48,287 bases of DNA from a virus. A model generated the notes under the pieces. The model saw only the letters and a list, made by a program, of their open reading frames with translations, was not told the DNA's origin and searched no databases. Shown here piece after piece: positions 32,835-42,207 of the stretch (position 1 is its first letter; every line of letters begins with the position of its first letter). Both the position numbers and the translations under genes were made by a program. The stretch lies in the IMG/VR virus record IMGVR_UViG_3300032235_000614, positions 1 through 48,287 of that record, one strand, 5' to 3'.

Positions 32835-32876
32835 GTTTTCATTTTATATATGACCTTATGAGTTTATTTTTACCCA

Positions 32877-32942
32877 GGGAAATTTTTTTATTTTGAGTCT
32901 TATATTTACTCGGGAAATTTTTTTATTTTGAGTCTTATATTT
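32877..32942. repeat. two direct copies of a 31-bp AT-rich sequence
   Basis: 32877-32907 and 32912-32942 are identical 31-mers (starting GGGAAATTTTTTTATTTTGA) with a 35-base period. They lie in the 253-base gap between the AbrB-like gene and the terminator at 33058. On the minus strand each copy contains ATATAAGACTC and an A-run. They could be duplicated promoter or protein-binding sequence for the 30-33 kb genes. The rest of the gap (32943-33057) is C-rich on the plus strand and shows nothing else I can name. Confidence 0.7.
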
Positions 32943-33057
32943 CTTTCGCTTTCGTAACACTTTGTAGGTTAGGGGAGGTTAGCGTTTTTAAAACGACCCA
33001 TGACCCGCCCCGCCACCGCCAACCGACCCATAAGGACTGCCAAACACGAACGAATAG

Positions 33058-33079
33058 GGGGGAGGATTGCGCCTCCCCC
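33058..33079 (-). terminator. strong GC hairpin after the DUF6011-like gene
   Basis: GGGGGAGG-CGCAAT-CCTCCCCC on the minus strand, 8 bp, starting 9 bases after the stop at 33088. No long T-run follows (CCTATTC), so termination efficiency is uncertain. The CAAT loop core is shared with other terminators of this region. Confidence 0.55.
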
Positions 33080-33087
33080 GATTATAC

Positions 33088-33507
33088 TTAGAGTCCGAAC
33101 TTCTCCCTGCAGATAGGACCGATTCCCAACTCAATTGAGAGGGGATTAGTTAACTCACGAGCGCAACAGGAGCAGGTTCCTGTATTCTGACCGTACAATT
33201 TAGCAGCAGCGTAAGGATCAGCGGCAGCGGATTGCACTGACTGAATGAGTGCCATTTCACCTAAATTGGTTGCGTTAGATGTAATCCAACCGAGGTAAAT
33301 GTTACTCATGGTGCCCCACTGATTCACCTCTTTATCGTGAGAGAAAACGTACACTTTACCCTGATACTTAGAGGGTTTCACGATAAAGTCTGTGAAGCGC
33401 ATTGTGATGCGCTTAAGACCCCTATTCTGTGCTTCCTCAATTGCATTAACGATTCCCGCGAAAGAATAGGCGGGAGCGGCATTGAGGCGGATGATGGGAT
33501 GGCGCAT
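33088..33507 (-). CDS. DUF6011-like protein with C-terminal zinc-ribbon-like motif, 139 aa
   Basis: I start at the ATG at 33507 (MRHPIIRLNAAPAYSFAGIV); the upstream in-frame stretch is leader sequence. The N-terminal ~100 residues include FTDFIVKPSKYQGKVYVFSH and MSNIYLGWITSNAT. The C-terminus TGTCSCCARELTNPLSIELG followed by IGPICREKFGL matches the DUF6011 pattern (C-x2-C ... GIGPxC), a small zinc-binding module seen in phages and actinobacteria. Three to four Cys would hold one metal. It is a single-gene unit: hairpins lie on both sides and the leader has the C/A-rich motif. GC content is higher than in the late genes. Confidence 0.75.
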   Translation of the reverse strand: MRHPIIRLNAAPAYSFAGIVNAIEEAQNRGLKRITMRFTDFIVKPSKYQGKVYVFSHDKEVNQWGTMSNIYLGWITSNATNLGEMALIQSVQSAAADPYAAAKLYGQNTGTCSCCARELTNPLSIELGIGPICREKFGL

Positions 33508-33600
33508 GATGCTGACCGGGTGTGGGTTGACTGCGAGGCGGGATCCCCCCCCCTCGCTTGAATCTATCCTAGGGCATCGGGCAGGATCCCGCAACCCGAA

Positions 33601-33620
33601 ACGGTATCGTAGGATACCAT
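33601..33620 (-). terminator. hairpin downstream of the 69-aa gene
   Basis: GGTATC-CTAC-GATACC on the minus strand, 6-8 bp including flanking A-T and wobble pairs, 16 bases after the stop at 33636 and before the leader of the 139-residue gene. Only TTTCGG follows, so it may be a weak terminator or an RNA-processing stem. Confidence 0.4.
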
Positions 33621-33635
33621 TTCACTAATTAACAT

Positions 33636-33845
33636 TTAACGGGCAGGATTGCGCCTTCTAATTTCATCACCAAACGTACAAGCTTGGTCCGAATAGTATC
33701 CCTCACGGATAGGATTCCACCCCCGCATCGCATACTCTGCCTGCCTGCAATCTGCTGCCGCATAGTATAGTTCGGCGATCGACATTCTCTCTGCCTGTTC
33801 TCTCCAACGGGTGAAATCTGCAGCGGTAGCGTATTCTTGGATCAT
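33636..33845 (-). CDS. conserved small protein, 69 aa
   Basis: It reads MIQEYATAADFTRWREQAER followed by MSIAELYYAAADCRQAEYAM, then RGWNPIREGYYSDQACTFGD. The W.eQaerM...eL..a..DC..Ae.aM.GWNP.reG.Y.Dqa pattern is one I recall from cyanobacterial and cyanophage small proteins. It is probably an all-helical protein with a Trp/Tyr-rich centre. It is transcribed alone between the terminators at 33867 and 33601. Function is unknown. Confidence 0.72.
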   Translation of the reverse strand: MIQEYATAADFTRWREQAERMSIAELYYAAADCRQAEYAMRGWNPIREGYYSDQACTFGDEIRRRNPAR

Positions 33846-33866
33846 GACAATTGTGGGGGGATTGTT

Positions 33867-33894
33867 GAAAGAAAGGGGGAGGATTGTCTCCCCC
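33867..33894 (-). terminator. rho-independent terminator after the 112-aa gene
   Basis: GGGGGAG-ACAATC-CTCCCCC followed by TTTCTTTC on the minus strand; 7-bp perfect stem, starting 10 bases after the stop at 33905. Confidence 0.75.
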
Positions 33895-33904
33895 AGAGTG
33901 TAAC

Positions 33905-34243
33905 TTACTTCGCCCAGGTTACGCGGATAAACTTATCACCCTCTGTAACTTTAGCGATTCCAGTTGCAACCTCTTTATCCTTCTCTGCTTTAAGGTTAAT
34001 TTCAAGGACCTTAATCGCGGGAGAATAGGTAACTTTATCGCGGGAGGTGAGTGATACCAACCCCCAGCAAGTGCGTTCGGAGGTTACATCGGCGGCGATC
34101 ATAATGCAAGCGATCTCATCACGCAGGCGCTTGCATTCTGCCTCTGCTTCTTTACATTTAGCGTCAGCGGTGGCAAGATGCCCCATAAGGGTCTCAAGCG
34201 TGTCCGAAACGATAGCGGCGGGCAGATCGTAGGAGTTTGCCAT
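33905..34243 (-). CDS. hypothetical protein with N-terminal coiled coil, 112 aa
   Basis: The start is the ATG at 34243 (MANSYDLPAAIVSDTLETLM). An apparent extension of the frame to 34480 runs through the AT-rich repeat region and a hydrophobic nonsense peptide and is rejected. Residues about 25-45 (ATADAKCKEAEAECKRLRDE) form a clear heptad coiled coil. The rest (TCWGLVSLTSRDKVTYSPAI, then IAKVTEGDKFIRVTWAK) is beta-rich. It resembles small phage proteins that inspect or bind replication partners, but no family is recognised. Terminator on the 3' side; repeated TTTATACT-containing units on the 5' side. Confidence 0.7.
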   Translation of the reverse strand: MANSYDLPAAIVSDTLETLMGHLATADAKCKEAEAECKRLRDEIACIMIAADVTSERTCWGLVSLTSRDKVTYSPAIKVLEINLKAEKDKEVATGIAKVTEGDKFIRVTWAK

Positions 34244-34366
34244 GGGTCTGGGGCGGATCGGGTGAAAGGTCGTTTCCGATCCGTTGTGCAAACAATACCA
34301 CGGGATCGGGCACCCCAGCAACGGGGCATTGTGACACCTTGCGGATTGGCACAAGAGGGCAGTTTG

Positions 34367-34534
34367 TATAAAGAATAAAGAATGAATCCGGATTGTAGAG
34401 TATAAAGAATCAAACAGAGATTGTAGAGTATAAAGAATTAGACAGGACTGAATGTAAAGAATAAACCACACCACTGACAATAAATTACATTCAATCCTGA
34501 GTAATTCTTTATACTCAATCCCACGTATAAAGAA
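34367..34534 (-). repeat. array of ATTCTTTATAC repeats in the gap before the 112-aa gene
   Basis: Two exact 20-mers (plus-strand GATTGTAGAGTATAAAGAAT) at 34391-34410 and 34419-34438 have a 28-base period. Related shorter copies (GTATAAAGAAT) lie at 34368-34378 and 34525-34535, with an inverted one at about 34503-34513. On the minus strand each carries TTTATACT, which resembles a sigma70 -10 box. The gap is 291 bases (34244-34534). I see no gene in it; it may hold several tandem promoters or binding sites. Confidence 0.65.
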
Positions 34535-34648
34535 TTACTTCTTCTTCTTTCTTTTCTTTGCTCCGTTAGTCTTTGCTTGAGACTTTACGTTCTTAAATCT
34601 TTTATCAGGACGTGATTTACCATCCTTGTGAATCCATCTGCCAAACAT
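34535..34648 (-). CDS. small basic protein, 37 aa
   Basis: Start ATG at 34648, overlapping the stop of the previous gene (TAATG). It begins MFGRWIHKDGKSRPDKRFKN and ends in a Lys/Arg-rich tail (GAKKRKKKK). Charge and length suggest a nucleic-acid-binding peptide. Translational coupling to the 54-residue gene supports its reality. Confidence 0.6.
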   Translation of the reverse strand: MFGRWIHKDGKSRPDKRFKNVKSQAKTNGAKKRKKKK

Positions 34649-34812
34649 TATAGAAACTCCGAACGTGAACCACAAGATTTGTAGAATGCTATCATTCTTT
34701 CTGCCTCTTCTTTTGTTGTGAATGATTGTGTACGCCATTCACATTCATTATATGGTGTCTGATACTTAATTGTGTAACCAATTGAGTTAATCTCGCGGGT
34801 GTTGTTGTGCAT
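34648..34812 (-). CDS. conserved small cyanophage protein, 54 aa
   Basis: The ATG at 34812 (MHNNTREINSIGYTIKYQTP) is preferred over an in-frame ATG at 34872 that lies inside the palindromic sites. The core IGYTIKYQTPYNECEWRTQS plus FTTKEEAERMIAFYKSCGS resembles a small beta-alpha protein (YxIKYQTPY....TQSFTTKEEAxRMIAFY) that I recall from cyanophages and cyanobacteria. Function is unknown. The upstream region carries three palindromes spaced exactly 26 bases apart. Confidence 0.68.
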   Translation of the reverse strand: MHNNTREINSIGYTIKYQTPYNECEWRTQSFTTKEEAERMIAFYKSCGSRSEFL

Positions 34813-34844
34813 GAATCTAGTTGCGATTGTGTGTTGTTGTGTGT

Positions 34845-34910
34845 ATCTCGTCGAGATATGTATGATGCGCATCTCGACGAGATTGATGTGTGCGCAATCT
34901 AGTCTAGATT
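34845..34910. promoter_or_regulatory. three palindromic operator-like sites at 26-bp spacing
   Basis: ATCTCGTCGAGAT (34845-34857), ATCTCGACGAGAT (34871-34883) and AATCTAGTCTAGATT (34896-34910) have centres at 34851, 34877 and 34903. All are near-perfect palindromes around one central base. They fill the 103-base gap upstream of the 54-residue gene. Confidence 0.7.
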
Positions 34911-34915
34911 TTTAC

Positions 34916-35071
34916 CTAATAATGATGGTGTGACATAACATTGTTAGGGTCGTTGTACCAATCAGAATCCTCATAAGATTCTGACATTCTGAGCATAAGA
35001 TCCTCAGTCAATGTAACCATCCCAGTGGTAACTAACTGCAGGATTTCTTCAGCGGTGAGGAATGTTTGCAT
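34916..35071 (-). CDS. small acidic protein, 51 aa
   Basis: Found by direct translation: MQTFLTAEEILQLVTTGMVT followed by LTEDLMLRMSESYEDSDWYN and ending VMSHHHY. It is helical and acidic in the first half and Asp/Asn/His-rich at the C-terminus. The ATG follows the leader ACACCACACC immediately, one of six such leaders here. No Shine-Dalgarno sequence is present. Function is unknown. Confidence 0.62.
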   Translation of the reverse strand: MQTFLTAEEILQLVTTGMVTLTEDLMLRMSESYEDSDWYNDPNNVMSHHHY

Positions 35072-35089
35072 GGTGTGGTGTAATTTAGT

Positions 35090-35108
35090 GGGGAGATTTT
35101 ATCTCCCC
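35090..35108 (-). promoter_or_regulatory. 8-bp hairpin between two single-gene units
   Basis: GGGGAGAT-AAA-ATCTCCCC is perfect over 8 bp. On the minus strand CACTAAA follows, so there is no T-run, whereas the plus strand would give CCCCTTTTG. It is probably the 3' end of the 64-residue gene's transcript, just before the leader of the 51-residue gene. Confidence 0.45.
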
Positions 35109-35120
35109 TTTTGTATTGAA

Positions 35121-35315
35121 TCAGAGGAGATTCAGTACCCAGACATTAAACTCTCCGAGGTCGATTCTCTCCCCTTCCATATGACCATATTCTGTGGAGA
35201 ATGCTTCAGGAATCTTGCAAAGGTCGGCACAAACTTTAGCGTACCAGTAGCACACTGTGCCAGTCTCATTCATGTAAGATTCCAGAGCGTTCAGGTAGTG
35301 AATGGGGGAAAGCAT
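35121..35315 (-). CDS. hypothetical protein, 64 aa
   Basis: Start ATG at 35315 gives MLSPIHYLNALESYMNETGT, then VCYWYAKVCADLCKIPEAFS and ERIDLGEFNVWVLNLL. Three Cys and several aromatics suggest a compact fold. The ATG is preceded by CACCACCGACACCGCATC, with GTCAACC further upstream (the C/A-rich leader), and a GNRA-loop hairpin separates it from the next unit upstream. The frame continues upstream to 35399, but that part is leader and hairpin sequence. No family is recognised. Confidence 0.65.
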   Translation of the reverse strand: MLSPIHYLNALESYMNETGTVCYWYAKVCADLCKIPEAFSTEYGHMEGERIDLGEFNVWVLNLL

Positions 35316-35363
35316 GATGCGGTGTCGGTGGTGTGGTTGACTATGTAAGTCTACAGGATGGGT

Positions 35364-35383
35364 GGGGACCGTTGCCGATCCCC
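35364..35383 (-). terminator. 8-bp hairpin with GCAA tetraloop after the 41-aa gene
   Basis: GGGGATCG-GCAA-CGGTCCCC on the minus strand (one T-G wobble), 20 bases after the stop at 35404. A GNRA tetraloop stem is very stable, but no T-run follows (ACCCATCC). Confidence 0.5.
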
Positions 35384-35403
35384 GTGTGCATCTTAACAAT
35401 CCG

Positions 35404-35529
35404 TCACAATGTGCCTTTGCGACCCATCGTTGCCCATACGTGAGAGGGACCGCTCAGGATCTTAGCACCATTGCGGACCCATACGATCTGGCGGGTTTTG
35501 ATGTTCGATGCGACGTTAAGAGTGTTCAT
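35404..35529 (-). CDS. small basic protein, 41 aa
   Basis: From the ATG at 35529: MNTLNVASNIKTRQIVWVRN, then GAKILSGPSHVWATMGRKGT. The beta-strand/loop pattern and basic charge suggest a small RNA- or DNA-binding fold. It has its own C/A-rich leader (CACCACACCACTCAG before the ATG) and its own hairpin downstream. An apparent extension to 35781 covers several hairpins and is not used. Confidence 0.55.
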   Translation of the reverse strand: MNTLNVASNIKTRQIVWVRNGAKILSGPSHVWATMGRKGTL

Positions 35530-35673
35530 CTGAGTGGTGTGGTGAACTGAGATCACAATACAGGCAGCATGGGGGATCCGTCTACAGGGGATTGTGCCAC
35601 CTTGCGAACTGGCCACCGATGCGGGTTTTGCGGGATCTCCGGTGCTTATAATACGGGGACAATCAGCACCAAC

Positions 35674-35691
35674 ACCGGCAGGGTCGCCGGT
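35674..35691. promoter_or_regulatory. perfect 6-bp GC hairpin in the 35.5-35.8 kb gap
   Basis: ACCGGC-AGGGTC-GCCGGT is a perfect inverted repeat. A second pair of arms, GGTGCT (35641-35646) and AGCACC (35665-35670), flanks a TTATAATAC segment. These lie in the 248-base gap 35530-35777 upstream of the 41-residue gene. No further gene is visible there. Confidence 0.4.
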
Positions 35692-35742
35692 TGACCAACT
35701 ATCGCCACCGAACCTGCGCTGAAATAATAGGGGAAAAAGTAT

Positions 35743-35770
35743 AAAAAAAGGGAGCGATTGCCCCCCCTTA
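35743..35770 (-). terminator. rho-independent terminator after the DUF7227-like gene
   Basis: On the minus strand, AAGGGGG... pairs with CTCCCTT (one G-T wobble) around a GGCAATCG loop and is followed by seven T's. It begins 8 bases after the stop at 35778. Confidence 0.75.
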
Positions 35771-35777
35771 AATATAC

Positions 35778-36446
35778 TCAACTCACAATGGCGTTGACTG
35801 TTTTTTTAGCGGTGCCATGTGCAGGGAATGCTATCACAAACTGGCGGTCCGCTACTTGACACAAACCGCAGGTGGCACAAGTAACATTCTCATGAATTGT
35901 TGCGGGGCAGGTGATCACTTTGCGACCGTTGGATGTTGTATAGAATCGGTCGGTTTTGTCAGAGTGAACAACTGCAACGGCAGGAATGTTATGCTCACTC
36001 ATCACGCGATCAGCATCATCGACAGACTCACAAGATGCGTTGATTGTGAAACCTTTGGAGTTTGCATCTTTGATCACTTCGATGTTATGATCATTCAAAG
36101 GGTGGTGAGTGTAAGTATAACCACGGCGCCCACGGTTAGCGTTAACCAACTGTGAAACCATGTTAGGGTTAATATCTCCCAGAATATGAGGGAGATCTCC
36201 ACTAACATTGTGGCGCCAGATCTGACCGCGCTGAATGTTACGAATCAGGGCAATAAATTCTGCCCAAACTACACCACGCTCGCCAGATGTTACCTTGCGC
36301 CAGTGTAATGCTTGGGGACCGGACTTAGCGTAGCAACCTTTATCATAGAAGGCGCAACCTTCCCAGCAGGAAGAACGCTCAGACGTGGTGGTGGGGATGG
36401 GTCCAGTCTTGGCATTGCTGGAAACCATGGTGAGAGCAACTTGCAT
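35778..36446 (-). CDS. DUF7227-like protein, 222 aa
   Basis: Begins MQVALTMVSSNAKTGPIPTT with a Cys cluster at C27, C31 and C38 (SCWEGCAFYDKGCYA), then LHWRKVTSGERGVVWAEFIA, GQIWRHNVSGDLPHILGDIN, NANRGRRGYTYTHHPLNDHN and a C-terminal Cys set (VTCATCGLCQ). The order ...NAKTGPIP.T...CP..C.....GCYA..G....HWR...G.RG...W..F.......WRHN..GDLP is the pattern I recall for DUF7227, a family of unknown function in bacteria, plasmids and phages. Paired Cys groups suggest a metal or Fe-S site. It has a C/A-rich leader directly before the ATG, a TATACT box about 27 bases upstream and a strong terminator. An in-frame second ATG (M7) is possible. Confidence 0.8.
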   Translation of the reverse strand: MQVALTMVSSNAKTGPIPTTTSERSSCWEGCAFYDKGCYAKSGPQALHWRKVTSGERGVVWAEFIALIRNIQRGQIWRHNVSGDLPHILGDINPNMVSQLVNANRGRRGYTYTHHPLNDHNIEVIKDANSKGFTINASCESVDDADRVMSEHNIPAVAVVHSDKTDRFYTTSNGRKVITCPATIHENVTCATCGLCQVADRQFVIAFPAHGTAKKTVNAIVS

Positions 36447-36488
36447 CGTGGTGTGGTGCGGTTGACTTTCATAGTATAGGGGCAGGAT

Positions 36489-36509
36489 GGGGGGATCCTG
36501 AGACCCCCC
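36489..36509 (-). terminator. 6-bp all-GC hairpin after the 171-aa gene
   Basis: GGGGGG-TCTCAGGAT-CCCCCC on the minus strand, 19 bases after the stop at 36529 and directly before the promoter-like TATACT of the DUF7227 unit. No T-run follows. Confidence 0.5.
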
Positions 36510-36528
36510 TGTGCCACTTGTCAGACTG

Positions 36529-37044
36529 TCACGATGCCCACTTGATTCCCTTAATGTCAAGAAACTCTACCAACTTAGCAGCGTATTCTCCACAATGAGG
36601 GCAGCGGATTTCCTTGCGAACGATGCAACGATCCTTAGACTTGAGGGAAGGATCACTATAAGTTTTAGTCTTCAGGCGATAGATTGCGGCAAGTGTGCGC
36701 AGCATTTCCTCTACCTTAAGATCCTTTCCTGCATACTTAAAGTAAACAGTATTGAAGCGGCGAAAATCATTCTCACGGCGGCACTTATCAAGTTGGGATA
36801 CAATCCAACGTGATTCTTTAATGTCACCCAGAATCTGATTCAAGCAAACCTCAAACGCTGCATTAACTGTCTCAGTCAGAGCAACATTGCGCTCAATTTC
36901 CTTCATTCGATCAGTCATACGCTGCTTTTGAATAACAGCAACCTGATCATCAAACTTAAGGGTTTGAGTCTCAATCTGCTGCTGCAGAGCAACAAACAGT
37001 GCCTTAACTTGATCGGCGGTCAGATTAGAGAGATCGAAGGTCAT
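36529..37044 (-). CDS. hypothetical protein with C-terminal zinc-ribbon-like pair, 171 aa
   Basis: The ATG at 37044 gives MTFDLSNLTADQVKALFVAL. Residues 1-80 are a long helix or coiled coil (IETQTLKFDDQVAVIQKQRM, then ERNVALTETVNAAFEV). The middle is WIVSQLDKCRRENDFRRFNT followed by VYFKYAGKDLKVEEMLRTLA. The C-terminus holds CIVRKEIRCPHCGEYAAKL, a C-x8-C-x2-C group that could bind zinc. The layout (helical N-terminus, zinc C-terminus) would fit a DNA- or RNA polymerase-associated regulator, but no family is recognised. The 5' leader (CACTACCACGGACCC) is a weaker version of the C/A-rich leader. Confidence 0.72.
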   Translation of the reverse strand: MTFDLSNLTADQVKALFVALQQQIETQTLKFDDQVAVIQKQRMTDRMKEIERNVALTETVNAAFEVCLNQILGDIKESRWIVSQLDKCRRENDFRRFNTVYFKYAGKDLKVEEMLRTLAAIYRLKTKTYSDPSLKSKDRCIVRKEIRCPHCGEYAAKLVEFLDIKGIKWAS

Positions 37045-37230
37045 GGGTCCGTGGTAGTGGGCGGCGTTCAGTGGTGCGCCGTTGAGTGAATGATGCCATG
37101 CCAGAACCGACCCACACCAGCGACCTTGTGCCACTGGTTCGATTGTCACACTGACGGGGGTTTTGCACTTATATAGAAGGGGGAAGAGGTTAGCGTCTCA
37201 TGCTAAACTGGATTGAAGTGATTATTCTCA

Positions 37231-37250
37231 TATAACGATACCGTTGTATA
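37231..37250. repeat. imperfect palindrome TATAACG-ATAC-CGTTGTATA
   Basis: Related to the TATAAC..TAAC..TTATA 18-mers at 40400 and 40701. It lies in the 212-base gap 37045-37256 upstream of the 171-residue gene. That gap also has an inverted repeat GTTTAGC/GCTAAC around 37190 and a TATATAAG box near 37172. No gene is seen in the gap. Confidence 0.4.
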
Positions 37251-37256
37251 ATAGAC

Positions 37257-37286
37257 AAAAAAAGAGGGAGGACACCACTCCTCCCC
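37257..37286 (-). terminator. rho-independent terminator
   Basis: GGGAGGA-GTGGTG-TCCTCCC then TCTTTTTTT on the minus strand; perfect 7-bp stem and a 7-T tail. It closes the transcript of the 62-residue gene and precedes the 171-residue gene's upstream region. Confidence 0.88.
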
Positions 37287-37389
37287 AGTTAACCCTACAT
37301 CCACGCACCATATTGTATGATTATATGACTTACTTCGCGCAGGGTGACTTTGATCATAACGCGGGAGGCAAACCCCTTCCTCCCTTATA

Positions 37390-37578
37390 TCATAATTTTA
37401 TCATCCAGTCTGGGTCATTGTCAAGTGTCACCCAGAAGTGGTTTTTACCATTGAGTGATGTAAGAAACAGACGATTACCCACATGTTGTTCGATGATACA
37501 TTGTTCATCGCTGTTCATTAGATTTGCAAAGCGATTCTTTGCTTTTCTAGAGATGGGAGTGACGAATGCTGATTGCAT
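37390..37578 (-). CDS. conserved small protein, 62 aa
   Basis: It reads MQSAFVTPISRKAKNRFANL and continues MNSDEQCIIEQHVGNRLFLT followed by SLNGKNHFWVTLDNDPDWMI. The pattern ISRKA+NRFANLM....C.vEQ......f......HFWV...nDP.W is one I recall from cyanobacteria and cyanophages, so I am fairly confident it is real. It is probably a small beta-barrel-like protein of unknown role. The leader contains TCTCG-W-CGAGA sites and a CATCGAGTTC segment shared with the gene at 40093. Confidence 0.75.
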   Translation of the reverse strand: MQSAFVTPISRKAKNRFANLMNSDEQCIIEQHVGNRLFLTSLNGKNHFWVTLDNDPDWMIKL

Positions 37579-37623
37579 GATGAATCTCGAACTCGATGTG
37601 TGTAATCTAGTTCATGATGCAGG

Positions 37624-37674
37624 TCTCGTCGAGATTGAATGTGCCACTAGATGATGTGGTACATCTCGTCGAGT
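37624..37674. promoter_or_regulatory. palindromic operator-like sites upstream of the 62-aa gene
   Basis: TCTCGTCGAGA at 37624-37634 and TCTCGTCGAGT at 37664-37674, centres 40 bases apart. A third, weaker copy (TCTCGTCTAGG, 37688-37698) falls in the end of the upstream gene. The first two lie in the 98-base gap before the ATG at 37578. Confidence 0.65.
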
Positions 37675-37676
37675 TT

Positions 37677-37823
37677 TTAGAATTGAATCTCGTCTAGGGT
37701 TGGACCATTATCTTGACTAGATTCACAAACGTCCATCCCATCACACAGTGTATCAAGAATCTCCAGGATGCTGTTCCCATTAGTGCCTTGACGAAGTTGA
37801 GAGATTAGAAGTTCTTTAGTCAT
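37677..37823 (-). CDS. small acidic protein, 48 aa
   Basis: Direct translation from the ATG at 37823: MTKELLISQLRQGTNGNSIL, then EILDTLCDGMDVCESSQDNG and PTLDEIQF. The frame begins 2 bases after the stop of the 59-residue gene, so the two are coupled. It is probably helical, acidic and soluble. The pattern ELL.QLR.GtnGneIL.ILD.l resembles short cyanobacterial/cyanophage ORFs; function is unknown. Confidence 0.65.
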   Translation of the reverse strand: MTKELLISQLRQGTNGNSILEILDTLCDGMDVCESSQDNGPTLDEIQF

Positions 37824-37825
37824 AA

Positions 37826-38005
37826 TCAAACACGAAGATAGGGAAAATTAGAATCAACAAGTCCAGGAATTGCAGAACTCGTTACTTTGAGTTGAGTTCC
37901 ATCATCATACCAACCATCAGTAGAAGAATCATAGACGAGAACCTCTCTGTCGAGTTGATTCTTGTCGAGAGTCTGAATCATCTGGAGAAGTTGTTGGTAG
38001 GTCAT
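37826..38005 (-). CDS. small acidic protein, 59 aa
   Basis: The ATG at 38005 gives MTYQQLLQMIQTLDKNQLDR, then EVLVYDSSTDGWYDDGTQLK and a beta-rich end VTSSAIPGLVDSNFPYLRV. It has an N-terminal helix followed by a small beta sheet. Similar MTYQ.LL..I..Ld..QL...V.v......e...... proteins occur in cyanophages. The unit follows a 7-bp hairpin and leads straight into the 48-residue gene. Confidence 0.68.
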   Translation of the reverse strand: MTYQQLLQMIQTLDKNQLDREVLVYDSSTDGWYDDGTQLKVTSSAIPGLVDSNFPYLRV

Positions 38006-38044
38006 GAGGTGTCTCAGGAACAAAGGTAATGTAGAACGGATTGA

Positions 38045-38061
38045 GGGTGCCAGAGGCACCC
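38045..38061 (-). promoter_or_regulatory. perfect 7-bp hairpin GGGTGCC-TCT-GGCACCC
   Basis: Minus-strand stem with a 3-base loop, 11 bases after the stop at 38073. TCAATCC follows, not a T-run. It separates the 54-residue gene from the 59-residue gene and may be a weak terminator or processing site. Confidence 0.5.
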
Positions 38062-38072
38062 GATGTGCCAGT

Positions 38073-38237
38073 TCAGTAACCGTTCAGGAAGTCCGCCAGT
38101 GCCTCCTGATACTGCTCCTCAGTCTCATAGGTACGCAGACCTATGGTAAGAGGAAACACACGCTTTGGAGCGGAAGCAGTGGGCAGATCCCGACCTTTAT
38201 CAAGGATCTGTTGCTTATAAGGATTGGAGTTTTTCAT
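38073..38237 (-). CDS. small basic protein, 54 aa
   Basis: Direct translation: MKNSNPYKQQILDKGRDLPT, then ASAPKRVFPLTIGLRTYETE and EQYQEALADFLNGY. The ATG overlaps the TGA of the 44-residue gene (ATGA), so the two are coupled. The C-terminal half should form one helix. No family is recognised. Confidence 0.6.
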   Translation of the reverse strand: MKNSNPYKQQILDKGRDLPTASAPKRVFPLTIGLRTYETEEQYQEALADFLNGY

Positions 38238-38371
38238 CAGAGGGTCACATTGCCGTTGACAAACTCATTCCAAGACTGCTCATTGTCTTCTTCATCCCTC
38301 ATTTCGGGAATGTCGAAGATCTCACCAGGAGCATCTTGAATCTCAGACCAAAGATCAGTGTCGAAGTCCAT
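38237..38371 (-). CDS. small acidic protein, 44 aa
   Basis: Direct translation: MDFDTDLWSEIQDAPGEIFD, then IPEMRDEEDNEQSWNEFVNG and NVTL. Strongly acidic (about 13 Asp/Glu). The ATG follows the C/A-rich leader (ACAACCACGCCAC), and a terminator lies just upstream, so this is the first gene of a two-gene unit. It resembles small acidic host-shutoff or DNA-mimic peptides in composition only. Confidence 0.6.
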   Translation of the reverse strand: MDFDTDLWSEIQDAPGEIFDIPEMRDEEDNEQSWNEFVNGNVTL

Positions 38372-38407
38372 GTGGCGTGGTTGTGTGAACAATCGAACTA
38401 TAGGACC

Positions 38408-38430
38408 AAAAGGGGGGCACGAAACCCCCC
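38408..38430 (-). terminator. rho-independent terminator after the KTSC-like gene
   Basis: GGGGGG-TTTCGTG-CCCCCC followed by TTTTGG on the minus strand, 12 bases after the stop at 38443. Confidence 0.7.
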
Positions 38431-38442
38431 ATGTACCAGTTG

Positions 38443-38667
38443 TCAGACCTCCACAAGGGTCTTTTCGGTACGGATTGCCTGATTGACAAACCGACCCACA
38501 GAACCCTCAGGATCAGCAATCACCTGCTCCAGAGAAGCAACAAAACCGCTAGGATCTTGTGCACGGTAGGAATACTCTTTACCGTTGCTGGTGTAGGTGA
38601 TGTTCACTTGCTCACCATCAATGTTCAGAGCAGAGATGGCAGAAGAATCGAAGTTGAATTCGCGCAT
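38443..38667 (-). CDS. KTSC-like small protein, 74 aa
   Basis: From the ATG at 38667: MREFNFDSSAISALNIDGEQ, then VNITYTSNGKEYSYRAQDPS and GFVASLEQVIADPEGSVGRF. The layout (SSxI..l.YD......v.f..G..Y.Y..v....F......S.G.f.n) matches the KTSC family, a small beta domain of unknown or RNA-associated function. It lies between tRNA-Leu and a terminator. GC content is close to that of the neighbouring cassettes. Confidence 0.7.
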   Translation of the reverse strand: MREFNFDSSAISALNIDGEQVNITYTSNGKEYSYRAQDPSGFVASLEQVIADPEGSVGRFVNQAIRTEKTLVEV

Positions 38668-38711
38668 TATGATTAAAAAGTAAGTTGACAATTGGCACTG
38701 GATTGTGCCAG

Positions 38712-38795
38712 TAGGGCGAGGGGGACTTGAACCCCCACGGGATTTCTCCCAACAGATTTTAAGTCTGGTGTGTCTACCACTTCCACCACCGCCCC
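38712..38795 (-). tRNA. tRNA-Leu (anticodon TAA)
   Basis: 84-nt cloverleaf on the minus strand: 7-bp acceptor stem (GGGGCGG pairing with TCGCCCT), anticodon stem CAGA/TCTG with loop CTTAAAA (anticodon TAA), a long class II variable arm (TGGGAGAAATCCCG), T-arm GGGGG-TTCAAGT-CCCCC and discriminator A. CCA is not encoded. A phage-borne Leu-UAA tRNA would help decode TTA codons, which are common in this AT-rich genome. Confidence 0.93.
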
Positions 38796-38808
38796 GTGGT
38801 ATGTGACA

Positions 38809-38837
38809 ATCATAGATCAGGAGATCTGGATTGTCAA
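38809..38837 (-). promoter_or_regulatory. sigma70-type promoter upstream of tRNA-Leu
   Basis: TTGACA (38837-38832), 17-base spacer, TATGAT (38814-38809) on the minus strand, with the tRNA 5' end 13 bases further on. The -35 box begins just after the end of the upstream tRNA. Confidence 0.7.
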
Positions 38838-38838
38838 G

Positions 38839-38911
38839 TGCTGGTTGCGAGGATCGAACTCGCCTCCCATCGATTATGAGTCGATTGCATTCGCCAGATT
38901 GCTAAACCAGC
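38839..38911 (-). tRNA. tRNA with anticodon CAT (elongator Met or Ile2)
   Basis: 73-nt cloverleaf: acceptor GCTGGTT/AACCAGC, D-stem GCA/TGC, anticodon stem ATCGA/TCGAT with loop CTCATAA, T-arm GCGAG-TTCGATC-CTCGC, discriminator A, no encoded CCA. CAT can be elongator Met or, if C34 becomes lysidine, Ile (ATA). The loop CTCATAA occurs in both. It lacks initiator features (no three G-C pairs at the end of the anticodon stem). Confidence 0.88.
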
Positions 38912-38920
38912 ATAGAATGA

Positions 38921-38941
38921 GTCTTGATGCTTTGTCAAGAC
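38921..38941 (-). terminator. perfect 7-bp hairpin after the 154-aa gene
   Basis: GTCTTGA-CAAAGCA-TCAAGAC on the minus strand, between the gene ending at 38956 and the CAT tRNA. Only TCATTC follows, so it is either a weak terminator or a stem for processing the downstream tRNA. Confidence 0.5.
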
Positions 38942-38955
38942 CCTTGTGACAATAC

Positions 38956-39420
38956 TTATGCTGTCACATAGTTAGGAATCTCGACGAGTTCTACAGGTTC
39001 CCCGAACCCAATCTTATAGCACTTCCAGTTATCGTCGAGATTGTACAGATAAGCGTACTCTTCTCCACCAAGATTTCCTGATACAAACTCGTCGAAACTT
39101 GTGTGCTCTACTTCCAGATCATCACCACGTTCTGTATGATAAAGTGGTTGAGGTTCACGATCATTCTCATACTTCAGATAACCTGCAGCATCATGAATGT
39201 ATTCTCCCTTCTCATCTCTGAGTGCTTTTGAGTTCCATTCTCCACGAGTGCGAAGTGTTGACATACTACCACCATCGATGAGTTCTTGTACATCTTCACG
39301 GTTCAGATAGTGTTGAACCAAGGTCTTACCATTGCCTTCAGGATAACCATCCCAGTGGCAGTAGACACTAACCACAGAATGATCAGGAAGTTCGATGCCG
39401 ATGCGTGAGCGAGTTCCCAT
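38956..39420 (-). CDS. conserved phage/cyanobacterial protein, 154 aa
   Basis: The ATG at 39420 gives MGTRSRIGIELPDHSVVSVY, then CHWDGYPEGNGKTLVQHYLN and REDVQELIDGGSMSTLR. The C-terminus contains GGEEYAYLYNLDDNWKCYKI followed by PVELVEIPNYVTA. The MGTRSRIGIe......s.YCHWDGYP...G..L..HY pattern is a well-conserved family of unknown function in phages. It is driven by a good sigma70-type promoter. The extension upstream of this ATG is leader. Confidence 0.85.
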   Translation of the reverse strand: MGTRSRIGIELPDHSVVSVYCHWDGYPEGNGKTLVQHYLNREDVQELIDGGSMSTLRTRGEWNSKALRDEKGEYIHDAAGYLKYENDREPQPLYHTERGDDLEVEHTSFDEFVSGNLGGEEYAYLYNLDDNWKCYKIGFGEPVELVEIPNYVTA

Positions 39421-39447
39421 GGTGTTCTTCGGGTGTTGAACGAGTTC

Positions 39448-39477
39448 AGTATAGGACACTCTTCAGTGGTCTGTCAA
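39448..39477 (-). promoter_or_regulatory. sigma70-type promoter for the 154-aa gene
   Basis: TTGACA (39477-39472), 18-base spacer, TATACT (39453-39448) on the minus strand. The ATG is at 39420, leaving a short leader that contains TGAACTCGTTCAACACC, also found before the gene at 39685. Confidence 0.75.
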
Positions 39478-39502
39478 GTGCCCTAGGACAGTCTTCAAAG
39501 TG

Positions 39503-39685
39503 TCACAGGAGGTCTTCGTACTCTCCCGAATCTAAAGCGTCTTCCAGCGCCATTACAAGACCATCGAAGTCCTCAGAGGATGGTAGCACACTGGTGAGGA
39601 TATTCACCAGATCGCCATATTCCTCACGAAGTTCATTCAAATACTCCTTCCGATTTGCATAACCGTTGTCTGTGTAGATCGACAT
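39503..39685 (-). CDS. conserved small acidic protein, 60 aa
   Basis: MSIYTDNGYANRKEYLNELR, then EEYGDLVNILTSVLPSSEDF and DGLVMALEDALDSGEYEDLL. The pattern M-S-I-Y-x-[ED]-N-G-[YF]-x-[NS]-R-x-[ED]-Y-L...L..eYg......L...LG..EDFDGLV.ALED is common in cyanobacteria and cyanophages. It is helical and acidic. Its leader shares TGAACTCGTTCAACACC with the preceding unit at 39420. Confidence 0.78.
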   Translation of the reverse strand: MSIYTDNGYANRKEYLNELREEYGDLVNILTSVLPSSEDFDGLVMALEDALDSGEYEDLL

Positions 39686-39719
39686 GAGTGGTTCAGGTGT
39701 TGAACGAGTTCAATCTATA

Positions 39720-39947
39720 TCAGAACAGGGTCATCTGCAATACGTCTTGTGCCAGTTCAGGTTTTGGCATAAGGAGTTGCTTCAAACGTTCCAGATGGTC
39801 AGTTCTTTGTCTGTCCTCAGATTCTGCACATAGATTTACAGGCACTCCATTATTGGTATTGAAAAACCCATAAGAATCTACAGAAGTCTTATAAAGTTCT
39901 GAGTCTTGTGTATAATAGACCCAATTATCATCAATAAAGTACTTCAA
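39720..39947 (-). CDS. hypothetical protein, 75 aa, TTG start
   Basis: The frame opens with TTG AAG TAC TTT (MKYFIDDNWVYYTQDSELYK), then TSVDSYGFFNTNNGVPVNLC and HLERLKQLLMPKPELAQDVL. The TTG shares TGA with the stop of the previous gene (TTGA), the same coupling that ATGA gives elsewhere; no ATG lies near. The N-terminal half is beta-rich, the C-terminal half a helix. No family is recognised. Confidence 0.68.
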   Translation of the reverse strand: MKYFIDDNWVYYTQDSELYKTSVDSYGFFNTNNGVPVNLCAESEDRQRTDHLERLKQLLMPKPELAQDVLQMTLF

Positions 39948-40093
39948 AATGGATCAAACTCCTTTACAGACACTTGTACGTCCTCATTACCTTCTAATTC
40001 TAGAAGATCTTTCCAGTTAATATCATGTACATCTAGATCATCATAACAATCTATGTCTAGAGTAACAATGATTTTGCGCTTCTGCATTAACAT
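39944..40093 (-). CDS. small acidic protein, 47-49 aa
   Basis: The frame starts ATG TTA ATG CAG at 40093 or the second ATG at 40087: MQKRKIIVTLDIDCYDDLDV, then HDINWKDLLELEGNEDVQVS and VKEFDPF. It is beta-alpha-beta in prediction and acidic. The leader CATCGAGTTC before the ATG resembles that of the gene at 37578. Function is unknown; coupled to the next gene through TTGA. Confidence 0.66.
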   Translation of the reverse strand: MLMQKRKIIVTLDIDCYDDLDVHDINWKDLLELEGNEDVQVSVKEFDPF

Positions 40094-40124: not shown

Positions 40125-40277
40125 TCATGCGTAGTGGCGATATGCAAGATCTTGATAATCTTGCCCATCTCGTGCATAATCCTCGTCGAGATCTGATGTG
40201 CCATTCTCGGCATATGAATCCTCGTCGAGATTATAATCGTTGCTAAACGTGTAGTCGAGATCGTAGTCGTCGTACAT
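40125..40277 (-). CDS. Asp/Glu/Tyr-rich protein, 50 aa
   Basis: From the ATG at 40277: MYDDYDLDYTFSNDYNLDED, then SYAENGTSDLDEDYARDGQD and YQDLAYRHYA. About 30 percent Asp/Glu and many Tyr, with a repeated DLDED element, so it is probably a disordered, DNA-mimic-like peptide. The codons for LDED (CTCGACGAGGAT) resemble the palindrome half sites nearby. The gene is driven by a sigma70 promoter with embedded operator-like palindromes. Confidence 0.65.
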   Translation of the reverse strand: MYDDYDLDYTFSNDYNLDEDSYAENGTSDLDEDYARDGQDYQDLAYRHYA

Positions 40278-40278
40278 A

Positions 40279-40360
40279 ACTCGTCGAGATTGTGTAACTG
40301 TAAGTATTATAGCATAAATCTCGACTAGATTCAAGCACATGTGCCAGTCTCGTCGAGATT
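40279..40360 (-). promoter_or_regulatory. sigma70 promoter with three palindromic operator-like sites
   Basis: The minus strand has TTGAAT (40334-40329), a 17-base spacer and TATAAT (40311-40306). Palindrome 2 (AATCTAGTCGAGATT, 40317-40331) lies across the -35 edge and spacer. Palindrome 3 (ACTCGTCGAGATT, 40279-40291) lies between the start site and the ATG at 40277. Palindrome 1 (TCTCGTCGAGATT, 40348-40360) lies upstream of -35. This is the classic layout of repressor operators on a promoter. Confidence 0.75.
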
Positions 40361-40399
40361 TTCATAAGATTATATAGGTCTTATAGTATGATAATGTCA

Positions 40400-40417
40400 T
40401 ATAACGCTAACATTATA
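40400..40417. repeat. 18-mer TATAACGCTAACATTATA
   Basis: One of two near-identical 18-mers (the other, TATAACACTAACGTTATA, at 40701-40718, differs at two positions). Both are imperfect palindromes with TATAA/TTATA ends, and they flank the plus-strand promoter and the 10-bp array. Confidence 0.6.
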
Positions 40418-40482: not shown

Positions 40483-40511
40483 TTGACAAACTGCGCGTCT
40501 TATGGTATGCT
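40483..40511 (+). promoter_or_regulatory. sigma70-type promoter on the plus strand
   Basis: TTGACA (40483-40488), 17-base spacer, TATGCT (40506-40511). It points into the 10-bp array and onward to the GIY-YIG gene 300 bases downstream, the only plus-strand gene of the window. Confidence 0.7.
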
Positions 40512-40540
40512 CGCTAAACTTGCATAAGAATCAGACATTT

Positions 40541-40670
40541 ATAAGCACTTAAAGGCACTTAAAGGCACTTAAAGGCATTCAAAGGACTTTATAAGCACTT
40601 AAAGGCACTTAAAGACATTCAAAGGACTTTATAAGCACTTAAAGGCACTTATAAGCATTCAAAGAACTTA
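40541..40670. repeat. 13-unit tandem array with an exact 10-bp period
   Basis: Thirteen consecutive 10-mers in strict register. They are built from four variants: A=ATAAGCACTT, B=AAAGGCACTT, C=AAAGGCATTC, D=AAAGGACTTT. The order is A-B-B-C-D, A-B-C'-D, A-B-A'-D', so the array is itself a threefold higher-order repeat. It is noncoding (10 is not a multiple of 3). The AAAGG tract recurs once per DNA turn on one helix face, suggesting bent DNA, cooperative protein binding or iterons of an origin. The rest of the 537-base gap 40278-40814 is AT-rich and holds the promoters and 18-mers listed. Confidence 0.92.
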
Positions 40671-40700
40671 TAAACATAGTTATTAAGAAATATTTAACAA

Positions 40701-40718
40701 TATAACACTAACGTTATA
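40701..40718. repeat. 18-mer TATAACACTAACGTTATA
   Basis: Second copy of the 18-mer, in the same orientation as the copy at 40400, 31 bases after the end of the 10-bp array and about 100 bases before the GIY-YIG start. Confidence 0.6.
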
Positions 40719-40814
40719 AGGTTCTATCAGAATTTTAGCAAATAAAAACAAAAATGATAATCTAAAATATCATATGAGATACATAAGATATTAAAAGTAT
40801 AATATACAATATAA

Positions 40815-41570
40815 ATGTCTCAGGGAATCATCTACCTCATCATCAATAAACAAAATGGTCACAAGTATATTGGACAGACCACACAAGGAATGAACAAAAG
40901 GTGGCAACAGCATATACAAGAATCATTGAGAATGAGTAATACACCATTGCATAAAGCAATGCGTAAATATGGAAATCACAACTTCATGATTAAAGAAATA
41001 GATGAATGTGATGAAAGTTTATTAAATGAAAAAGAACAATATTGGATAGAAAAATACAATACATTCAATAGTACTGATGGATATAATGGTGATCATACTC
41101 ATAATACTGATGATGAAGTAATACAAGAAACATTAAAACCAAAGGAAAAGATCAATCGTAAGACTGAACCTTGGGGATTCTTAATTAGTAAAAACAGAGG
41201 TGATGGTAAACACTCTGGAATAAAAATACAAGGACTGAATATAGAAACTGGTGAAATAAGAGAATGGGATAATGCTCGTGATGCAGCAGAAGAAATTACG
41301 GGAGATAGAAATAAAAACAGTAATATACTACTCAGTGCTAAGAAAGGATATAAGTGCTATGGATATAGATGGAAATTACTTGAGAATAAAAATAAGAAGA
41401 AAGCAATTAAAGCAGTGAATAGAATAACATGGCAAGAGTATCATTTTGAAAGTTGTGCCGATGCTATTAGAAAAGTTTGTGGAAATCAGTGTAAAGGTAC
41501 TGGACTTTATAAAGCATTAAAAAGTAAAGGACGTTATACTTGGAAAAATCACATGTGGTTCTATCTTTAA
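40815..41570 (+). CDS. GIY-YIG homing-type endonuclease, 251 aa
   Basis: The N-terminal nuclease domain has GIIYLI (residues 4-9) and KYIGQT (17-22), the two halves of the GIY-YIG signature, the catalytic Arg in MNKRW (Arg29) and the metal-binding Glu in NEKEQYWIEKY (about 72-74). The C-terminal part has two repeats of the NUMOD/IENR DNA-recognition type: about residues 135-195 (GLNIETGEIREWDNARDAAE, ending YGYRWKLL) and 200-251 (TWQEYHFESCADAIRKVCGN, ending WKNHMWFYL). This is the layout of free-standing phage homing endonucleases. It is the only plus-strand gene and converges with the HNH gene 31 bases away, so the two probably form a mobile insertion. Start ATG at 40815; no strong SD. Confidence 0.93.
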   Translation: MSQGIIYLIINKQNGHKYIGQTTQGMNKRWQQHIQESLRMSNTPLHKAMRKYGNHNFMIKEIDECDESLLNEKEQYWIEKYNTFNSTDGYNGDHTHNTDDEVIQETLKPKEKINRKTEPWGFLISKNRGDGKHSGIKIQGLNIETGEIREWDNARDAAEEITGDRNKNSNILLSAKKGYKCYGYRWKLLENKNKKKAIKAVNRITWQEYHFESCADAIRKVCGNQCKGTGLYKALKSKGRYTWKNHMWFYL

Positions 41571-41601: not shown

Positions 41602-42207
41602 TCATGATTCTTCTAGTAAAATTTGAAGATATGTTTTTGGTTTTTTGATTTTATTTTGAACTTTTTTGATCTTTGACTTATTTGCATGATTACCACCATA
41701 AAAAATGACTGCTTTTCTTGCATTTTCTTTTGGTGTATCATATTCAAGATTACTGATATGATTATTTCGAGGATTGTGATCTTTATGATTTATAATCACA
41801 GTATCATAAATCCATTCCTTTGCTTCTTGTGGGATTTTATTCCAACACTCTTTTAATCGTTCAGGAGGATTTTGATCAATTGGATTAAACGTTGCCATTA
41901 CCAATTGATGAATTCTTTTTTTAATTACAAAATTAGAATTTGATGGCCTTCCTTTTCGTGTATAATCATATTCATCTCCAATTAAATGTTGAGGAACTGA
42001 AAACTCAAGATACAATGAAGGATAATCTTTTGATTTTTCTCTGGGTTTCATTTTGTGAAACTCATTCGTGATAATTGTTTCAAATCCATATCTTCCTCTT
42101 GAAACTTGACGATAGGAAGTATAGACATCTCCATGATCATTAATGAAATATCCAGGAATAATTGTTCCTTTAAAATCAAAAACTAATGGCTCAAGATCAT
42201 TTCTCAT
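41602..42207 (-). CDS. HNH homing-type endonuclease, 201 aa
   Basis: N-terminal residues about 15-35 (TIIPGYFINDHGDVYTSYRQ) are NUMOD4-like, as in phage HNH endonucleases. The catalytic HNH core at 139-160 reads INHKDHNPRNNHISNLEYDT, with His141, His144, Asn149 and His150. The C-terminus is Lys-rich (KSKIKKVQNKIKKPKTY) and may contact DNA. No intron is evident; it is a free-standing gene placed 5 bases after the end of the secreted-protein gene, likely an insertion into the minus-strand operon. Confidence 0.93.
   Translation of the reverse strand: MRNDLEPLVFDFKGTIIPGYFINDHGDVYTSYRQVSRGRYGFETIITNEFHKMKPREKSKDYPSLYLEFSVPQHLIGDEYDYTRKGRPSNSNFVIKKRIHQLVMATFNPIDQNPPERLKECWNKIPQEAKEWIYDTVIINHKDHNPRNNHISNLEYDTPKENARKAVIFYGGNHANKSKIKKVQNKIKKPKTYLQILLEES

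Follow-up and report, generated by a model that had tools for sequence, protein, structure and literature searches.

A promoter-led, helically phased region of T4-like cyanophages as a candidate replication origin

In phage T4, replication at the origins oriF and oriG is primed by an R-loop at an unwinding element downstream of a promoter, whilst oriE has an early promoter together with 12-nt repeats at even spacing, the role of which is not known (PMC3016281). In cyanobacteria the DnaA box is TTTTCCACA (PMC4674748). For the cyanomyovirus Syn9 a single theta origin has been predicted, and according to a review which cites this, it is not known if the same holds for the other cyanomyoviruses (PMC2984593). 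Here we describe a tandem array which, by sequence comparison, is the leader part of a ca. 600 bp cis region conserved in cyanophages; literature searches found no description of this region. The window, the whole stretch of DNA analysed, is a virus record of 48,287 bases classed as linear and hence possibly partial, and its sequence identifies it as a fragment of a T4-like cyanophage (Kyanoviridae). S-SRM01 aligns to 19% of the local region, with 75% identity, and other parts of the window match P-SSM2, P-SSM5, AG-345-L05 and S-PM2 (Kyanoviridae). The features of the region in the window are as follows.

40125-40277, minus strand: tiny acidic ORF of ~50 aa (MYDDYDLDY...), with some of the dyads in its LDE codons
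40182-40357: upstream zone of CTCGWCGAG dyads and variants, starting at 40182, 40221, 40251, 40280, 40320 and 40349 (spacings 39, 30, 29, 40 and 29 bp)
40306-40334, minus strand: divergent sigma70-like promoter for the minus-strand ORF, TTGAAT-17 bp-TATAAT (consensus match only)
40399-40417, plus strand: left 19-mer, ATATAACGCTAACATTATA
40483-40511, plus strand: sigma70-type promoter, TTGACA (40483), 17-bp spacer, TATGCT (40506-40511), with TG upstream of the -10 box
40518-40539, plus strand: predicted first transcribed stretch, CTTGCATAAGAATCAGACATT, conserved in many relatives
40540-40669, plus strand: tandem array of thirteen 10-bp units in exact register
40671-40814: AT-rich stretch, 83% AT, candidate unwinding element
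40700-40718, plus strand: right 19-mer, ATATAACACTAACGTTATA
40815-41570, plus strand: GIY-YIG homing endonuclease gene (PF01541, E = 9e-11), an optional passenger of the region

Compared at the sequence level, the region is like oriF/oriG in having a promoter (40483-40511) with an AT peak downstream (+160 to +200 in the family; 40671-40814 in the window, 83%), but the T4 promoter is a MotA middle promoter whereas this one is of sigma70 type, with a consensus -35 box TTGACA, TG and TATGCT, and the cyanophage region has repeats and protein boxes between promoter and AT peak. With oriE it shares evenly spaced short direct repeats and an early-type promoter without need for a phage factor; the repeats there are of 12 nt, whereas those of the window recur every 10 bp and those of relatives mostly every 10-11 bp or at multiples of this, the cyanophage promoter is conserved across distant phages, and the cyanophage region has, in addition, phased dyads upstream and boxes of the DnaA or TTCTCAA kind. 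The region resembles both T4 origin types but formally belongs to neither, given a promoter that is not of the MotA kind and a period other than 12. In ~22% of relatives the TTTTCCACA box of cyanobacterial oriC (PMC4674748) is likewise clustered beside an AT-rich stretch, but the phage region belongs to a lytic phage, does not lie beside dnaA/dnaN, has a predicted transcribed leader, and is without these boxes in the window. Syn9, in turn, is a cyanomyovirus with one predicted origin (as cited in PMC2984593), but lacks the promoter.

The array units fall into seven distinct sequences of four types, in the order A-B-B-C-D / A-B-C-D / A-B-A'-D'. Three sequences are present in several copies (TATAAGCACT three times, TAAAGGCACT four times, CAAAGGACTT twice) and four are single-copy variants (TAAAGGCATT, TAAAGACATT, TATAAGCATT and CAAAGAACTT). 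Self-identity at lag 10 is 88/134, whereas dinucleotide shuffles give 38.7 ± 5.2 (maximum 56 of 500), and at lag 40 it is 83/104 against 30.1 ± 4.4; Tandem Repeats Finder reports a period of 40 with a score of 203, the highest in the window. No ORF of at least 40 aa lies within 40540-40669 and the units contain TTAA; with stops in every frame and no ORF, a coding repeat was rejected. A preliminary description of this DNA had thus been right that thirteen 10-bp units stand in perfect register, that the array is noncoding, and that four unit variants form a three-part pattern, the last round of which uses the variants A'-D', although it placed the array one base too far right (40541-40670).

Other claims of that description needed more revision. 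It had put the array next to a promoter; the promoter exists, but as the array is downstream of the predicted transcription start near 40518, it would itself be transcribed as part of the leader and not just adjoin the promoter. The paired 18-mers which it noted are 19-mers (40399-40417 and 40700-40718), identical at 17 of 19 positions, and a box similar to the right 19-mer follows the array of one relative (L042). What it took for the only strand switch of the window is a single plus-strand GIY-YIG gene (40815-41570) with minus-strand genes on either side; an HNH_3 endonuclease gene (41602-42207, minus strand) comes directly after it. The curvature prediction which it proposed gave no bend and does not favour the suggested curved-DNA enhancer: in a wedge model, the end-to-end to contour ratio of the array is 0.956, near that of shuffles (0.935) and far from an A-tract control (0.24). 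A late promoter was likewise rejected, as the units loosely resemble TATAAATA, yet exact TATAAATA is missing from the plus strand of the family leaders. Elsewhere in the window, positions 33001-40000 have a GC content of 43-50% (ca. 30% in the left part) and contain tRNA-Leu and tRNA-Met genes and many short ORFs, and further tandem repeats occur at 32859-32942 (35 bp × 2.4) and 34375-34447 (28 bp × 2.7).

No other viral contig matched the exact array units, so relatives were sought via the promoter and a degenerate array pattern. BLAST with the array and its left flank matched the promoter, not the array, in S-SRM01, AG-345-L05, P-SSM2 and P-SSM5, and DSL-LC03 was reached by way of S-SRM01; a search pattern built from those relatives, TTGACA-N11-TNATGNTANGCTCGC, matched at least 120 stretches of viral contigs, and 110 loci among the matches listed were usable, all cyanophage-like, from ocean and lake. 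Two loci (L026 and L052) were treated as outliers which match the promoter pattern whilst the rest looks different; the last 160 bases of L052 hold two inverted, overlapping promoter copies in a near-perfect palindrome, which could be an assembly artefact. The layout of the family across at least ~110 loci is, from left to right, dyads, near-invariant promoter, leader (often with an array), box module and AT-rich peak. Among the matches listed, promoter and first transcribed bases have the consensus TTGACAAACTGCGCGTCTTATGaTACGCTCGCTAAGCTCACAAGAcctgGAggCATTTATAA, in which the hexamers and most fixed bases stem from the search pattern whilst the intervening and downstream bases do not. Since the loci were gathered by promoter pattern, part of the promoter conservation is a product of selection; this does not apply to the periodicity of the leaders, the DnaA boxes, the dyads or the AT profile. 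With up to 2 mismatches allowed, the promoter element occurs exactly once in each of the 9 matching records (9/9), including P-SSM2 (252 kb) and a 146-kb contig, so that the region is apparently present once per genome. It lies at 65.9 kb in P-SSM2, 85.5 kb in S-SRM01 and 80.3 kb in DSL-LC03. The promoter was not found in Syn9, S-PM2, P-SSM4, S-RSM4, S-SKS1 and S-CAM7.

The leaders carry a DNA-helix signature. Pooled over 109 distinct loci, positions +32 to +150 show an excess of identity at lags 10 (z = 13), 11 (z = 16) and 20 (z = 12) and a deficit at lag 5 (z = -11) and at lags 15 and 16 (z about -11), z-scores which are inflated by kinship among the loci. The preliminary description had looked to relatives that keep the flanking genes for the array itself, a check with a mixed outcome; relatives keep the promoter and the helical periodicity, with other units and copy numbers, and tandem arrays were detected in 50 of 99 leaders against 20 of 496 control stretches (4%). 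The best periods of the leader arrays are mostly 10-13, 19-24 and 30-34 bp, and the units vary by phage, for example CATTTACAAG in L010, CATTTATAAGCACCTAAAGG in L048, AGGATTAGGAG in L104 and TATAAGATCGGGCATTAAAT in L039, whilst S-SRM01 has a degenerate array only. In the window the units are made from sequence of the CTTGCATAAGAATCAGACATT kind, and across phages the arrays seem to have been repeatedly rebuilt from the first transcribed sequence, in helical register. Upstream, CTCGWCGAG and close variants occur in 433 copies at 78 loci, all within 600 bp upstream of the promoter, and in P-SSM2, S-SRM01 and the 146-kb contig roughly half or more of the genomic dyad copies lie in the region. Dyad spacings in the family peak at 31-33, 40-42, 50-51 and 60-62 bp; the phase test scores nR2 = 30 at 10.5 bp, a broad peak (9 to 11 bp score too) from related, non-independent sequences, whereas a 3-bp period scores 4.8, and the spacing is therefore not explained by codon structure. 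In the tiny acidic ORF (40125-40277, minus strand) the DNA-level CTCGWCGAG motif is embedded in coding sequence as LDE codons; similar ORFs occur upstream of the promoter in S-SRM01 and AG-345-L05, and the ORF has no match in Pfam or PHROG.

Downstream of the leader, relatives carry alternative box modules, the class boundaries of which differ slightly between analyses because region lengths differ. Among the matches listed, DnaA boxes (TTWTCCACA) are present in 23 of 105 relatives (~22%), including DSL-LC03, with 48 boxes against 1.4 in shuffles (>30-fold) and 3 for the reversed pattern. Their density is 1.95/kb at +38 to +150, 0.90/kb at +150 to +320 and 0.018/kb elsewhere in the same loci, i.e. 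ca. 100-fold higher at +38 to +150 than in the rest. In the 172.8 kb genome of DSL-LC03, 7 of 13 DnaA boxes lie in the region, within 450 bp. There are no DnaA boxes near the element in the window, P-SSM2 or S-SRM01. TTCTCAA/TTGAGAA boxes occupy the DnaA-box position in ca. 30 other loci among the matches listed, and in this module the three box cores are near-invariant whilst the spacers drift. The two modules occur together in just 1 of 102 loci (Fisher P = 0.003), and DSL-LC03 carries both box types; about half of the loci, the window among them, have neither. In L022, L066, L072, L079, L097, L099, L116 and L119, 11-bp box repeats, e.g. GACACTCCCAA and TACAGATTCCA, replace the DnaA/TTCTCAA module. 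AT content across the family is 54% at the promoter, peaks at 75% at +160 to +200 and then falls (60% overall). Two of the promoter-less phages also have DnaA-box clusters: in S-PM2 (NC_006820) 3 of 9 boxes cluster at an intergenic AT-rich site (P = 0.0016), and in Syn9 (NC_008296) 3 of 4 lie at 52.6-54.6 kb (P = 0.03, weak statistics). The S-PM2 site (19231-19620), with three boxes in 35 bp beside an AT-rich stretch, is by its sequence a candidate for a different type of origin; ca. 300 bp beyond the cluster lies the segment of the S-PM2 genome where 10-bp periodicity is strongest. Two of the Syn9 boxes (52565-52597) are in an AT-rich intergenic gap upstream of baseplate wedge genes, with the third at 54597.

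The next ORF after the promoter, at a median distance of 258 bp, is on the minus strand in 44 loci and on the plus strand in 34 among the matches listed, counts which are approximate because ORF calling was mechanical; with 44 minus-strand cases the promoter is often without a gene to drive. Plus-strand next ORFs of at least 150 aa nearly all resemble GIY-YIG or HNH endonucleases (among the matches listed). Such genes lie directly downstream of the promoter region in the window (40815-41570), in L010, L025, L031, L041, L046, L048, L060, L071, L088, L094, L110 and L128, and in other loci. Given this recurrence, homing endonuclease genes seem to use the promoter region as an insertion hot spot, and are possibly aimed at the origins of rival phages. 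In P-SSM2, S-SRM01, DSL-LC03 and AG-345-L05 a minus-strand gene is next and there is no plus-strand endonuclease, yet promoter and region are kept.

We put an even chance on the reading that the region is an origin, or origin-activation region, of phage DNA replication which is activated by transcription and helically phased. Its closest rival is an early-transcription control region or a small RNA, in which a strong host-type promoter drives an untranslated leader or small RNA, the dyads, phased repeats and boxes are sites for regulators of early expression, and no replication starts; we regard this as a real but doubtful alternative. No other element is as well conserved as the promoter, which often lacks a plus-strand gene behind it; DnaA and other box proteins can regulate transcription; and the 304-nt leader of the window (40517-40820) has a more stable predicted fold than shuffles (z = -4.4), so that an RNA function is conceivable. 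The array part of this leader (40517-40680), however, folds unremarkably (z = -1.4), and no compensated pairs were found in 20 sequences of the TTCTCAA module, so a hairpin is unsupported; the compensation test covers this module only, the leader arrays not being alignable across phages. Searches gave no match to an Rfam family and, in the window, no intrinsic terminator, and the periodicity of the leaders (positive at 10-11, negative at 5 and 15) matches the DNA helix and so points to DNA rather than RNA. A structured RNA was rejected given the missing Rfam family, the lack of compensated TTCTCAA pairs and the weak folding of the array, although the longer 304-nt leader does fold well. The array could also be a neutral repeat, expanded by replication slippage of the first transcribed sequence in an unconstrained leader, as units and copy numbers vary between phages and the arrays duplicate bits of that stretch; but the best-scoring periods cluster near 10-13, 20-24 and 30-34 bp, in the pooled leaders the periodicity follows the helix, with negative values at half-period lags, and the spacing of the upstream dyads is likewise helical; we consider this explanation unlikely.

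That promoter and leader are part of a homing endonuclease gene, with the array as its regulatory 5' UTR, would fit the roughly one third of loci among the matches listed, the window included, where a GIY-YIG or HNH gene follows. As the promoter is present in phages without such a gene (P-SSM2, S-SRM01, DSL-LC03 and AG-345-L05) and the downstream endonucleases come from different families, we hold this to be very improbable. A packaging or recombination site, also among the candidates of the preliminary description, has only the one-per-genome occurrence and the repeats in its favour; no terminase gene or end signal was identified adjoining the region, T4-like phages package by the headful mechanism without a specific site, and nothing else points to a packaging site, so that we give this reading hardly any credence.

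DnaA-box clusters, the AT peak, a single copy per genome and a promoter often without a gene make an origin the best supported of the three candidates in the preliminary description, by the anatomy of the relatives and short of proof. The even weight given to the origin reading reflects its resemblance to T4 oriF/oriG and oriE, its DnaA-type form in a fifth of relatives and the DnaA clusters of S-PM2 and Syn9. Counting against it, the leader array is not universal, the promoter is missing in six cyanophages and about half of the loci are boxless. DnaA is a transcription factor in bacteria as well, so DnaA boxes alone do not prove an origin. Cumulative GC skew, proposed earlier as a check, runs monotonically through the site in S-SRM01, P-SSM2, DSL-LC03 and the 146-kb contig with no reversal; as genes are strongly one-sided in these genomes, this neither shows nor excludes an origin and cannot locate one.

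If the region is an origin, host RNA polymerase would transcribe the leader early in infection and, as it passes, might melt the AT-rich stretch together with proteins bound along one face of the helix (host DnaA where there are boxes, otherwise other factors). Either the transcript or the melted DNA would then allow a T4-type replisome to load; the gp59 helicase loader was found in P-SSM2, S-SRM01 and DSL-LC03. In the window, without DnaA boxes, the 10-bp units may be binding sites or a phased spacer, and the origin might later be shut off via a changed transcription programme, as at T4 origins. More tentatively still, and with greater doubt than for the region itself, the sequences may define an origin class of T4-like cyanophages that keeps one early promoter fixed and exchanges the initiator module (host DnaA boxes in some phages, TTCTCAA boxes or repeats phased with the helix in others).

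Cyanophages rank with the most abundant viruses of the ocean. If such a class exists, replication of these lytic phages would begin, unlike that of T4, with the initiator of the host or with substitutes for it, and the exchange of DnaA for TTCTCAA modules would point to phages that switch the protein which marks their origin. The region is defined by sequence, apparently occurs once per genome and is found in isolates such as P-SSM2, S-SRM01 and DSL-LC03, which makes the origin question directly testable.
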